The notes under the pieces: model-generated
Seen by the model: only the letters and a program-made list of their open reading frames with translations
Told to the model about the DNA's origin: nothing
The model's database searches: none
Shown here: one piece after another, positions 6,568-49,615 of the stretch
Position numbering within the stretch: position 1 is the stretch's first letter
How the letters are laid out: each line of letters starts with the position of its first letter
Program-made: the position numbers and the translations under genes
Assembly (NCBI GenBank): GCA_031258945.1
Contig: JAIRME010000024.1
Span: 1-54,386 of the forward strand
From: Mycoplasmataceae bacterium
GTDB lineage: Bacteria; Bacillota_I; Bacilli_A; Mycoplasmatales; Mycoplasmoidaceae
DNA: 54,386 nucleotides
Direction of reading: 5' to 3'

Positions 6568-6656
6568 TGGCGGAGACGATGAGACTCGAACTCATGCATC
6601 GCAGAACGACCTAACACCTTAGCAGGGTGTCCTCTTAACCACTTGAGTACGTCTCC
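6568..6656 (-). tRNA. tRNA-Ser (anticodon GCT)
   Basis: An 89-nt tRNA on the minus strand. The acceptor stem pairs GGAGACG with CGTCTCC, followed by G and an encoded CCA. The anticodon loop CTGCTAA gives GCT, which reads AGU/AGC serine codons. The long variable arm (TAGGTCGTTCTGCGATGCA region) and the T-loop GTTCGAGTC are as expected for a class II tRNA. Confidence 0.96.
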
Positions 6657-6685: not shown

Positions 6686-7387
6686 TTATTTCTGTTTAAT
6701 TTGATTTTGTTTGTTGAATTCTTCCATTTGAGTAATAATATTGGTTTTACGCAATGATTTGTGTTCTCTAAACATCCCACTAGAAGCAAATAATTTTACT
6801 ATTTCAATTACTAATTTTTCAGGCGATTGACTGAGACGTTTAAATTCGTCCAAGTGGACAGCCGTAATGTTGCCATTGGTTTCACTTACCACAAAAGAAA
6901 AACAATCATATTTTTCACATATACCAAAGGCAGCTCGATGTCGTGCACCGTATTCTACGTTGACAATTTTTTTAGTCATTGGAAGGTAACTAGATAGCGA
7001 AGCAATTCTCCAATTGCGAATAATCATAGCTCCATCATGTAAAGCTGATTTGTGGTTATAAAATATACTAGTAACAAATTCAGGGAAAAAAATAGAATCT
7101 ATTTTATTGCCGATATTAATGTAAGGTGCTAAGCTATCATTATTTTCAATCACGATCAATGCTCCTACATGATCAGATGAAAGTTTTACAAGAGTACTCG
7201 CCAAATTATTAAAAAAATCTAGTAAGAATTTAATATCGTCATTTTGTCTTTTTTTGGTAAGACGAAATCGTGAAAAAAATTTTTTAATTTCATTACCATA
7301 GATTGCCAACAAAATTTGTGTGACAATCATACCAATTAATAGCAATAAAATAATAATTATTAAGACTAATGAAATATCAAATATCAT
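6686..7387 (-). CDS. diadenylate cyclase, CdaM-type (DisA_N domain)
   Basis: This 233-aa enzyme makes cyclic di-AMP from two ATP. It has one N-terminal membrane helix (about residues 5-28), then a linker and the DAC domain. The catalytic DGA motif is in SALHDGAMIIRN and the RHR motif is in YGARHRAAFGI; both are intact. A single membrane helix is like mycoplasmal CdaM rather than three-helix CdaA. It lies 22 bases downstream of the 606-aa GGDEF/EAL-like membrane protein on the same strand and is probably in one operon with it. Confidence 0.93.
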   Translation of the reverse strand: MIFDISLVLIIIILLLLIGMIVTQILLAIYGNEIKKFFSRFRLTKKRQNDDIKFLLDFFNNLASTLVKLSSDHVGALIVIENNDSLAPYINIGNKIDSIFFPEFVTSIFYNHKSALHDGAMIIRNWRIASLSSYLPMTKKIVNVEYGARHRAAFGICEKYDCFSFVVSETNGNITAVHLDEFKRLSQSPEKLVIEIVKLFASSGMFREHKSLRKTNIITQMEEFNKQNQIKQK

Positions 7388-7409
7388 ATTTCAATATTAT
7401 AAATCTTAT

Positions 7410-9230
7410 TTAGATAACATAATAATTAACTTTAGCTTTAGTAAACATTTTTTTCATCAACTTCATATATTCTTGTTCTTGGTAATTTTTTGCTGTAAAA
7501 TGATGATAAAAAACAAAATATGGTTTTGTTTGTATGACAAAATCTATGTTATGTACATTTACATTTTTATACACAAATTTTATTCCTATTTTTTTTAAAC
7601 TATTAATGTTAGCAATAATGTTTTGTTGATCAGATTTATTCCCTAATAGACGCAAATCTAGTAATAAAATAATTTGATTAGGCGATAAATCAAAATATAA
7701 AATTTTATTGTTAAAAATTTGAGCCGAAAAATTTTGATCCATTAATGATTGAATTGGATAACGAATCATTAGTAATTCATGCTTATTGTTCATAATTGAA
7801 AATTGTTGCAAAGCCTTTGCCGCTAAATATTTAATCATAATTACTTGAAAGTGTTCCGGTGTCATTTTAATGATATTGTCCGTGTTGAAAGCAGCCAATT
7901 TAAATAAACTAAAGATTGGAAAAATAATTTTTTGATTTTGATAATAAATGATTCGGCTCTTTTGATTAATTTGATGAATATCAAATAATTGTTTTAATCG
8001 TTGAAATTGTTCCATATCATAGCGAATATTGGATTCAATTTGAGCATTAAATAATTGAACTTTACTATATTCATTCTTAAATTCAAATCATTCAATCATG
8101 GTTTGAACATCATAGATAAGATTAAAGATATCGTTATCGTGCACCCCATACAAACCGACAAGTAAACTAGTTTGGGGGACAAATTTTACACCTTGAAATT
8201 CATATGGTCGCAAATGAAATGATTCAAATTGAATTAATGGATCGTTTTTTTTTCTTTTTTTCAAATAATTATTTTCGTTCATTAATTTTAATGATTTTAC
8301 AATGCTTACATCCGCTTTTATTATCGTAAAGAAAAAATCATTTTCGCTCATGAATAATAATTTAGCAGGGTAAGAATCAAAAAAAACTTTAATTTGATTA
8401 GCGACATGTTGTTGAATTTCATTAATCATACGTTTACTAACGGTAAAGTTAGTTTTTTTTATATTTCTAATAGAAAAACCTATAACATAGGCATATTGAA
8501 TATTGTGTTTTTTAATAAAATCGTTAATTGCATATTGAGCATAATTAGATACAACGAAATATTTGTAATCATAAGCTGCTTGTTTGTTCATTAATTGTGT
8601 TTTTTGGTATATCCGATTTACATAAACCATAATATACCATGACAAGAAAATGAATAATTGCAAAATTGATGAAACAATTCATAATTCTTTTTGTAATTGC
8701 GCATCAATTAGATTCAACCCATAACTCATTGTGAGTATTAGAATAATTTGTCCAATTGAACAAAAAATATGTGACGCAATTGTTTGGAATATTTTTGGTA
8801 TTTTAGGTAAAAAATAAAAAATTAATAATATTCCCATTAGATAAATTAAATAACTAGTAACCACATAGATAATAGAGATGTGATTTAACGAAAACAATAA
8901 AAAAGATCCAATCATCATAGGAATGATGCCACCTATACCGAAGTAAGGACTTGTGTAAAAAACACCGGGTAAAATAATCAAAATAATGGTTACAGCATTA
9001 ATAGTGTTATTTGCATTAATGGACGAAAGAAAAAAAGTAAGGAAAAAGATTGTGCTTAAAACGGTTCCCAAAAAAATATCAATTAATGGTCAAAGTCATT
9101 TTTTTAATAATATGTGATTTTGATAAAAAACAGTATTTTTAATAGAAAGAATAATAACAAAAATGAAAATGGCAAATAATAATGCAATGATATTGCACAT
9201 GAAAGTATTACTAAAAAATGAACTATTCAT
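7410..9230 (-). CDS. multi-pass membrane protein with apparently degenerate GGDEF- and EAL-like domains
   Basis: The frame runs 606 codons from ATG 9230 once TGA is read as Trp (for example at 9090-9098, 8679-8681 and 8088-8090). Residues 1 to about 205 are six or seven hydrophobic helices. Residues about 215-400 have the layout of a GGDEF domain, with the signature position occupied by SENDFFF (about 295-301). Residues about 406-606 follow EAL spacing (RIIYYQ, AKALQQFSIM, LYFDLSPNQ, LKKIGIKFVYKN) but lack the ExL and DD catalytic residues. The domain calls are pattern inference and need a profile search. The gene is directly upstream of the c-di-AMP cyclase gene, so a role in controlling it is possible. 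Confidence 0.75.
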
Positions 9231-45556: not shown

Positions 45557-48500
45557 TTAATTTTTAGTTTTTCAATCTTTCACTCATTGTGAACCGAGTT
45601 GATCATTAAAGCGACGATCATAAACAACTAACTTATGATTGTTAAAAACGGTTTTAATAACATCATTGATAGTAGCAGTCTGATTACTTGTATCTAGTGC
45701 AGCTTGTGCCAACAAATAACTAATCATATCATCACCTAATTTCGTTTTTAGATTATCGACAACGTCTGCGCTAGTTTTTCCGCCATCAGTAGATACATCA
45801 TAAGAGTTAATCTGCATTACACGAACTCGTGAACCAACAGTCGGACTTTTATCATCATCAGGAATGAATTGATTACCGCCTAAATGAGCTATTTCCAATG
45901 TTGGACTATCAGTATTAGTTTTATTGAACCCTTTAAAGCACGAATCATCTAAAGGAGAATCCCCCTTGTCACCTTCTGATGTACCAATACCTTTTAATAA
46001 TTCAGTTTTAGCATTGCTTGGTGAACCAGCATTGTTAATTGCACCAATTACACTACCAAAAACTCCAGTTTGACTTTGAATAAAATTAGCATAACGATTA
46101 ATTATGTCCATAGTTGGTGTTTGAGTATCTTTATCTATGGTATCGTATAAATTTTTTCTAGCAGTTGTGTCTGCCCCATTATTAAATTGATATAAAGAGC
46201 CCTGCGGTTGCCCAGAGTCCGGTTGCCCATTGGCATAGAAATTATCAAATAAATCTGCCTTAGCATTGGCGGATACTTTATCTAATGTATTAGAATTTTT
46301 AGTCTGTAATCCTAAAAATCCCATTGCATTAATGAGGCCATTAGAAGTTGTTGGCATTGGTGCAAATTGCCAATGACTATCAAAAGAAGTGTATGTTTTA
46401 CCATCATCAGTAGTAGTTATGGATTTATTGTTAGTATTTTGATAAATACTATCAAACAAACCATCATAATTATTTTTTCAACCATAAATCGCTTCTTCAT
46501 CATTAGAACCAGGTTGATAAAAACTCTCATGATATTTTGTATTATCTTTAGCTGCTCATGCAATGTAGGTTGTATTAGTATAATCTGAACCAATTTTATT
46601 TTGTAGTCATTTTACAAGTCCAGAGTAGTCATTGTTTGACAATCGATACATAGTTGCCAAATAAGTATCTCAATCAATAACTTTGTCTGTATACCCATTA
46701 CTGACTACACCATCTTTTGACATGATTCGAGAAGAACCTAAATTACTATCTAATGACGATTCTCATTGAGACCATAAGCCTTTTTGGTAATTATCAAAAG
46801 CTAATGCCTGTGAGGAAGAATTATTGTTGAAATAAGAAGTAATTGGGGTATCACTGGTTATTAGTTTGTTTGTAATATACATAGAAGTAATAGCAGACTT
46901 TTCATCATCCGTTGGCCATCATTCTCCCATATATGCTCGAAGTGCAGCAGTTTTAACACTATTACTAAAAGTATTACTTCCGCCAAATTTTCATAGCATA
47001 TCATTAACATAATCATTGTAAGTTAAAATATTTTCACTATAGTTGTATTGATAAGCTTTAGTATTGCCTTTACCATTTTGAATAGCTTGTTGATTAGTTC
47101 CTTGTAAACTATCATTCCAAAGTTTGTAATTTTCAATCACACCATTTAAATAATATTTTTCGTCATCATTAAATCTTGTAATTAGAGCATTATAAGACTC
47201 GTCAGTATATCATGGACCGTCTTCACCAAAAAAGGAATCACTGGTACCCACCAAACCAACTTCTTTAGCCATATTGCTAGCTGACGTTACAGCTACTTCA
47301 TAGTGTGTTTTTGTACTTAAATTATCTGTTGTCGTATCTATTGTTCAACCACTTTCCATTAACAACGGTAATGATGTAGCTAAACCATTTTTATAGATTG
47401 AAGTTCCACTATTGCCTTTCTCGTGACTTATATCAACTAGTGCATTTGTTCGGTAAGTGTTAGCAAAAGAAAATAATTTTTTATTATTAGAATCATAATT
47501 AGCAATAATAGTTGTATATATGTCTAATAAGTTGAATGATTGAATCAAATAATTTAATTCATGGTTTCAGACTTCATTACCGTTAGTGCTCCCTAAAGTT
47601 GATTTTAAACCCAACATATTATCATCGTAATAAGAAGTCGAATTACCATTGGAATTAGTATTAGGTTCTTTGTCAGTTGTTGTCATTACTCGATTAACAG
47701 CATCAAGAATAACAGTGTCTAAGTTACTTTTAAGGTAATCAACTAATGGTCCGCTTGCAGCACCACCGCTAGATGTAATTACATTTATACCTTTAACCGT
47801 TGGATTACTATTTTGATTTTCGTAGATGGTTCTAAATTTAATAATTTGATTTTCTCTTTCTTGTGAAAACGGTACTCCAGGACGTCAGTTTGTTGAATCA
47901 GTATTAGGTTCAGCTTCGGCTTGATTTAAATAATCCACTCCATCCAAACCTTCAAAGGTAACTCCTTTATTAGTTCGAATCATAATGTAGGGGAGTAATT
48001 GATCATTACTTTTAGTATTCGCAAATCTCATAGCATTTACTATGTACCTAGCTCCATCATCATATCAAGTTGGTAAGCCTGAACCAGGTTTACTATTAAA
48101 CAATTCAATATGATCTTGATTTGTTTGTTCAACACTATCATCGTAAATATCTTTTAAATCAAGCATGCTTAATTTATTTGTATCAACACTTACATCTAAT
48201 TTTGAATCGTTAAGTTTTAATACACTATCACCAACATGAGAATTATTATTATCTTTAAATAAAAAATTCTTCAAAATATCTTCTTCATCAGAAAAATAAG
48301 AATCATTTGATTTAATTGATAAAGGCATTGTGTCGGTATATTTTGTAGAACTGTCTTGATATTGGTTCAACATATCAAGAAGTGGAGCAATATATGTTTC
48401 GTAAGGTGTATTATCGCTTCCTGAATTAGAAGATTGATTAATTAATGCTAATGTTGATGCATCATCCGCGCTATATCCTTTTCCTTTGCTAATGTCCACC

Positions 48501-49615
48501 AAACCTAATTTACCAGCTGTATTACTATCACGATTATCTAAAAATTGATTGTACGTGGTACTATTAAAATCAGTTACAAATCGCCTAAATTGGTCTTCAG
48601 GTCCTCAACCAACATCCGAAGAATCTTCGCCAAAATATGGAAAAGCAAAGCTAGGAGTAGTCAATAAACTATCGCCATCTTTTTCAGAACTAGTTGACGA
48701 CCCAGAATCATTAATTCGACTATTATTGTAAATATCTTTTAAATCCGTTTTACCAGCCGGTAATGAATAATTTCATAATACATAACCAGTTGACAATGGT
48801 CTAGTGTACTTAGTGTAATCTTCAAATGCTAATTGTTGAATTAATGCATATGATTTATCTTGTTCTTTAGTGTCTGTCGGCAAATAATTTATATTAGCTT
48901 TTGCATAAAAATTAATTGTTGGCCATCAGTCAGGATTTAACATGCTTTGATCTGTTGCTGACAAAGGACCATTGCCTAAAACTTCTTTAACATCACCAAC
49001 AATCTTGCTAGTGTTAACATCATAGTTAAAATCAACAAGATTATTACCATCATCATCTTTTACATAAAAATCTTTATTTAATTTATCACCTGAAATTTGT
49101 GGTACTGCTAAATAATTATTTTTAACTATTTCAGTTGTAAAATAATCACGAATTTTGGAATATCATTGATTTTGTTCTCACTTGGCTTTGGTGCCACCAA
49201 CAGGATTTAACGTTTCATTTTGAAAATAGTATTTTCAATTAGAAAGATGGTTATTTTTAGCAGTTTGAATCTGGTTATCTCACTCATCGCTGATATCCTT
49301 TTTTCATTGTTTTTTATCATTATCAATGGTTGAAATACCTGTAAGACTATCAAACCAACCTTTTAAAATTTTGTTAACCACAGATGTTTTGAAAGCACTA
49401 GTAGCATCTTTGTCAGTTAAGGCAATGTTGATTTCATGTTGTAAATCAAAACTAGAATCACCAAAACTATCAGCAAATTTACTACCATCACCTAACGATA
49501 CCATATTGTTTAAAATATCTTTGCTTACTCCACTACAAGAAGTAACTAATGTAGTTGCTACTGAACCAATTGCCGCTACAGTTAATAGTGAAAATATTGT
49601 TTTTTTAAGTTTCAT
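45557..49615 (-). CDS. very large lipoprotein (1352 aa), mycoplasma surface-antigen type
   Basis: One continuous frame under code 4 from ATG 49615 to TAA 45557. The signal peptide MKLKKTIFSLLTVAAIGSVA ends at lipobox LVTSC (Cys27). The mature part is rich in Asn, Ser, Asp, Thr and Trp (many TGA), with no membrane helix after the signal. Segments such as KWEQNQWYSKIRDYFTTEIV and SYDVSTDGGKTSADVVDNLK suggest many small alpha/beta units. C-terminal VRVMQINSYDV and VVYDRRFNDQLGSQWVKDW recall mycoplasma lipoproteins of the MG307/MG309 kind; this link is tentative. AGGTAGG lies before the ATG. The function is probably surface exposure. Confidence 0.92.

Follow-up and report, generated by a model that had tools for sequence, protein, structure and literature searches.

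The window analysed here, a 54,386-nucleotide stretch from a Mycoplasmataceae bacterium, encodes a membrane protein (P0001) that we read, at a probability of just over one half, as a catalytically dead GGDEF-EAL protein repurposed as a membrane regulator of a module formed by the diadenylate cyclase CdaM and the magnesium transporter MgtE. The window corresponds to contig 39 in an assembly of 835 kb (~86% complete), and its open reading frames were translated with code 4, in which TGA encodes tryptophan. The longest of these frames comprises 1352 codons, 22 of them TGA (45557–49615, minus strand). The original prediction had described a 606-residue protein with six or seven membrane helices and GGDEF- and EAL-like C-terminal regions, encoded 22 bases upstream of an intact diadenylate cyclase gene. 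Under code 4, both the reading frame and the spacing are as described (Table 1).

Table 1. Features of the P0001–cyclase locus in the window.
Feature	Position	Strand	Basis or remark
P0001, 606-aa membrane protein: seven transmembrane helices, degenerate GGDEF, degenerate C-terminally truncated EAL	7410..9230	-	code 4
Predicted seven-helix membrane domain, residues 9-203	8622..9206	-	predicted model; K/R loop pattern
Degenerate GGDEF domain, residues 217-395	8046..8582	-	VIA-align to 4urs_A; hhalign
MSENDF, residues 294-299, at GG[D/E]EF position	8334..8351	-	hhalign to GGNEF of L172; unconserved across 70 homologues
Degenerate truncated EAL domain, residues 410-606	7413..8003	-	VIA-align to 6hq5_B; homologues above Pfam EAL cut-off
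Intergenic gap between P0001 and cyclase ORF, 22 bases	7388..7409	-	
Predicted CdaM-type diadenylate cyclase, 233 aa, one N-terminal transmembrane helix	6686..7387	-	PF02457, NCBIfam CdaM, DGA118 + RHR149
tRNA-Ser, downstream of cyclase ORF	6568-6656	-	

Taken alone, P0001 matches no Pfam or NCBIfam family in direct scans (it scores below the PF00990 and PF00563 cut-offs), and direct searches against PHROGs, PADLOC and PDB sequences returned nothing useful. Even a 15-row family profile reached only E 0.36 against PDB sequences, with the DgcR GGDEF domain as its best match. Homologues in families f5, f7 and f8, by contrast with P0001 itself, score above the Pfam EAL (PF00563) cut-off (L084, E 2.1e-20; L085, 8.7e-22; L077, 7.6e-11; L080, 1.4e-9; likewise L153, L148, L141, L151 and L149). 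We modelled P0001 with AlphaFold2 from the 15-row alignment A1 (mean pLDDT 82, pTM 0.51), obtaining a model that is usable for domain folds and not for relative domain placement. Its top solved-structure matches are tandem GGDEF-EAL proteins. With VIA-align, the GGDEF part matches the Thermotoga maritima GGDEF domain 4urs_A (Z 14.1, rmsd 2.8, 152 aligned) and the EAL part matches the Bd1971 EAL domain 6hq5_B (Z 15.2, rmsd 3.4, 192 aligned), in line with single-domain matches overall (Z 14–15, rmsd 2.8–3.5). Both domains together align to PA0575 (5m3c_B; Z 18.1, 354 aligned), the high rmsd of 13.7 reflecting a different placement of the two domains. In addition, hhalign aligns a 70-row family profile to an ordinary GGDEF-EAL protein over residues 227–577, with the domains in order (probability 96.5). 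Through its relatives and modelled structure, and only by these routes, P0001 is assigned a GGDEF fold (residues ~217–395) and a truncated EAL fold (~410–606). The proposed layout of the C-terminal halves is therefore confirmed, and neither half belongs to an unrelated fold.

Seven membrane helices are present in the model, within the range originally predicted, and helical elements lie within residues 9–219. Lysines and arginines of the membrane domain occur in loops 32–45, 141–145 and 204–225 and in none of the other loops, a pattern that fits an external N-terminus and an internal C-terminus. In the model, the last membrane helix reaches residue 219, the point at which the GGDEF fold begins. 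A membrane helix that runs into a cytoplasmic domain is a layout typical of membrane receptors.

The adjacent cyclase reading frame starts with an ATG at 7387, 22 bases past the end of P0001, and the corresponding gap in relatives ranges from −34 to +113. The encoded 233-residue protein matches PF02457 above the cut-off in a Pfam scan (E 5.6e-30). Its best NCBIfam match is CdaM (190.9 bits, E 1.7e-56, below the curated cut-off of 225), compared with 167 bits for CdaA. The DGA (118) and RHR (149) motifs of the DAC domain are intact, and orthologues of the cyclase have one or two hydrophobic segments each. The gene had rightly been called an intact diadenylate cyclase; by its domain and motif content, its predicted product is closest to CdaM. 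Promoter and terminator scans performed no better than shuffles.

A profile search found the P0001 family in 86 of the 320 genomes of the order and in 20 of its 50 genera, many of the compared genomes being incomplete MAGs. Related loci found with close alignment rows come only from uncultured Mycoplasmataceae MAGs. Leaving the f10 and f11 rows out of a profile of the soluble part did not prevent it from finding those members (E 7.5e-32 to 1.6e-46), and the same profile finds a soluble-only reading frame in G036 (E 1.4e-11). This version of the protein has 327 residues and no membrane domain, and its gene overlaps the start of the cyclase reading frame (L071:9672-10652). A diverged member in G023 was recognised by hhalign at 97.5%, with 14 control proteins below 1%. 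The gene tree fits the six taxonomic families with five changes, the minimum possible. Since the tree follows taxonomy, it argues against recent transfer and for a gene already present in the order's ancestor – that is, for a family that is vertically inherited across the order. A class-wide sample yielded no full-length homologue outside the order, and two of its genomes gave ordinary GGDEF-EAL proteins. EAL-containing proteins of 606–625 residues also occur in f4 (L088:271-2145, L090:1411-3228) and are at best remote or weak relatives; the L088 gene lies directly upstream of a prolyl-tRNA synthetase gene.

Linkage to cdaM was counted in 39 genomes that carry both genes free of contig-end interference (G029 and G117, affected by contig ends, fall outside the count). 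In 28 of these, from families f1, f7, f10 and f11, the family gene immediately precedes the cyclase gene in the same orientation, so the pairing seen in the window is conserved among relatives, as expected from the original prediction. Thirteen of the linked genomes belong to the window's genus (G000, G001, G005, G006, G011, G019, G022, G023, G024, G026, G027, G033, G035), and the others lie outside it (G267, G269, G273, G274, G300, G036, G045, G046, G063, G064, G070, G115, G116, G119, G120). Both genes are present and unlinked in 11 genomes (G021, G025, G275, G276, G277, G282, G284, G291, G298, G043, G049), which include all examined g22 members. Within the window's genus the family gene occurs in 15 of 24 genomes with the cyclase versus 0 of 12 without it (Fisher p 0.0003), a comparison of related genomes that are not independent events and in which counting G023 would make 16. 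Two variants of the locus were also observed. In G116 (L142:5345-6637), two tandem diadenylate cyclase genes follow the family gene. In seven genomes of the window's genus that have the cyclase and no family gene (L050, L052, L053, L055, L049, L067 and L069, from G010, G015, G017, G020, G007, G031 and G034, respectively), a reading frame of 325–333 residues lies directly upstream of the cyclase, often overlapping it. This replacing frame is cut at a contig end in G007 and encodes a DHH-DHHA1 protein in G020; DHH matches fall at this position in each of the seven.

No cyclase match was obtained from family f5 (which includes Spiroplasma), from genus g25 or from part of g23. An IS element in G216 shares 91% identity with plasmid sequence of S. 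poulsonii, which identifies this genome as a Spiroplasma. In 23 of the 28 cyclase-less genomes examined, the family gene is directly followed by an MgtE-like gene (exceptions: G209, G214, G216, G287 and G288), five representatives of which contain MgtE, MgtE_N and CBS domains (Pfam). The full order family gene–cdaM–mgtE is found in 11 genomes of f1, f7, f10 and f11, with room in f11 for one gene between cdaM and mgtE. Among the matches listed for both genes, which favour strong matches and come mostly from genomes lacking the family gene, all 91 genomes have mgtE downstream of cdaM in the same orientation, and in 85 of them the matched domains lie no more than 1.7 kb apart, start to start. This suggests that a cdaM–mgtE operon is widespread in mollicutes. 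The ancestral order looks like family gene–cdaM–mgtE, an arrangement newly recognised here. These patterns are most simply explained by three ancestrally joined genes, of which individual lineages gave up one: most of f7 lost the family gene, Spiroplasma lost cdaM and the window's genus lost mgtE.

Because the family is kept beside mgtE in cyclase-less lineages, the cyclase cannot be its sole partner. P0001 might then be mainly an MgtE partner, tied to the cyclase through a shared operon and serving another target in the window's genus. Persistence beside mgtE after loss of the cyclase speaks for this explanation. The window's own genome, however, has no MgtE match and its genus nearly none, yet the genus keeps the gene, always with cdaM, and we consider an MgtE-centred role unlikely. 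Since the window's genus lost mgtE, CdaM would be the remaining operon partner there.

A dead catalytic body could also have acquired a new ligand. Canonical GGDEF/EAL catalytic motifs are conserved in none of the 70 homologues: the EAL, Asn and DD motifs have been lost (EAL catalytic positions mapped through L085), and P0001's EAL domain ends 50–60 residues before those of Spiroplasma-lineage homologues in alignment A1. The absence of EAL catalytic residues had been predicted; the missing C-terminus adds to it. Likewise, an hhalign comparison with an intact relative pairs GGNEF with SENDF and DDFG with KNVN, placing the replaced signature where the original prediction had put it (SENDFFF). 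Conserved in their stead are residues specific to the family: G362 throughout, Y361 in 97% of homologues and Y491 in 69 of 70. Of these, Y491 sits beside the EAL metal-Asn position. These residues, together with the weak ATPase activity of the degenerate GGDEF domain of GdpP (PMC10243994), would fit a pocket remodelled into a putative c-di-AMP, ATP or GTP receptor that exerts feedback on CdaM. Against this stands that the pocket conservation seen is confined to Y361-G362 and Y491, and we regard such a receptor as distinctly unlikely.

Conserved neighbourhood might instead reflect little about function, with P0001 performing some independent task in the membrane that has nothing to do with c-di-AMP or Mg2+. 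Copies without linkage are retained in g22 and in other genomes, and in Spiroplasma-type genomes the family locus lies in an rnr-smpB-trmB-like neighbourhood. Nevertheless, adjacency to cdaM or mgtE is kept across families at <30% protein identity, and the soluble-only G036 version still overlaps the cyclase, making this explanation quite improbable.

No GGDEF domain above cut-off was found in the window's own genome (~86% complete) or in 60 relatives, and two sub-threshold GGDEF matches in relatives are each followed directly by a DHH domain, the arrangement expected of GdpP. Because no diguanylate cyclase was found and the catalytic motifs are lost family-wide, a working c-di-GMP sensor is unlikely, and the role originally suggested, that of a decayed c-di-GMP sensor or turnover protein, gives way to a domain pair that decayed long ago and was repurposed, which fits better. 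A c-di-GMP receptor of the LapD/FimX kind, despite its shared fold and a coral-mollicute EAL protein read as evidence of c-di-GMP use (PMC11535214), is highly improbable given the lost EAL, Asn and DD motifs and the lack of GGDEF domains beyond two weak, GdpP-like matches.

Comparison with characterized systems sets P0001 apart from each. It shares fold, tandem order and catalytic loss with LapD, FimX and CsrD (and, for the EAL domain, YkuI), but the genomes scanned yielded no diguanylate cyclase, the P0001 EAL domain lacks its C-terminus, the seven-helix part belongs to no Pfam family and the operon partner is a c-di-AMP cyclase. The c-di-AMP phosphodiesterase GdpP/YybT is likewise a membrane protein with a degenerate GGDEF domain, and its GGDEF-DHH form is known in Mycoplasma bovis (PMC10720645). 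In contrast, P0001 has seven helices, no PAS domain and, with no Pfam DHH-DHHA1 match, an EAL fold at its C-terminus. Separately, we considered the family as a stand-in for a missing DHH phosphodiesterase and rejected this idea: 57 of 60 genomes encode DHH proteins, whether or not they carry the family. CdaR and GlmM are, like P0001, encoded beside a membrane diadenylate cyclase (CdaA), and CdaR is membrane-bound; unlike them, P0001 has no Pfam YbbR match and no phosphoglucosamine mutase domain, and its gene lies upstream rather than downstream. The CdaM proteins of Mycoplasma pneumoniae and M. bovis are of the same cyclase class as the window's downstream gene. In those portions of published CdaM papers reached by term searches, no upstream partner gene is reported and MgtE goes unmentioned for M. 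bovis; the open-licence literature searched yielded no published description of the operon.

We favour a regulatory partnership, with CdaM in the window's lineage and with MgtE or both in others, on the basis of the receptor-like layout of P0001, the single membrane helix of M. pneumoniae CdaM (PMC5508000) set against a CdaA controlled by CdaR and GlmM (PMC10243994), and the capacity of dead GGDEF/EAL domains to act via protein contacts (PMC5635695). P0001 would be the product of the first gene of an ancestral c-di-AMP and Mg2+ homeostasis module. From its seven helices, a long helix would lead to a cytoplasmic GGDEF-EAL body, which has lost its catalytic motifs and would act as a scaffold or an allosteric domain. 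In the most likely scenario, the membrane part would respond to membrane or ionic state, and the body would touch membrane-anchored CdaM and change its activity – by analogy, as CdaR and GlmM act on CdaA. The same body may also contact MgtE in lineages that keep it. For the action on CdaM, we infer the physical contact, the direction of regulation and the sensed signal. More tentative, at somewhat short of even odds, is the broader proposal of a three-part ancestral unit in which a c-di-GMP module came to act directly on c-di-AMP and Mg2+ homeostasis, as regulator or as receptor, with lineages keeping different pairs.

Several observations weigh against P0001 as a CdaM regulator. The family gene is unlinked from cdaM in the 11 genomes listed above, and Spiroplasma-type genomes keep it in the absence of any cyclase; its target may therefore be MgtE or something else. 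Most mollicutes with cdaM have no detectable family copy. P0001 is 62% identical to its nearest relative, in G025, versus 88% for CdaM, indicating that it evolves much faster, and operon order may partly be old synteny.

Control of CdaM, an apparently essential mycoplasma cyclase, has had no CdaR-like or other regulatory partner named in the literature searched, and a conserved operon partner provides a concrete, testable candidate. The finding also gives mollicute EAL-domain proteins another reading besides c-di-GMP use (compare PMC11535214). The union of cdaM and mgtE in one conserved unit is in line with work in Bacillus subtilis, where c-di-AMP binds MgtE and both c-di-AMP and Mg2+ fall after osmotic upshock (PMC8844918); a Borrelia turicatae cdaA mutant carried an mgtE mutation (PMC8316131). 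The family protein is probably a previously undescribed regulatory partner that takes part in controlling c-di-AMP and ions in mollicutes.
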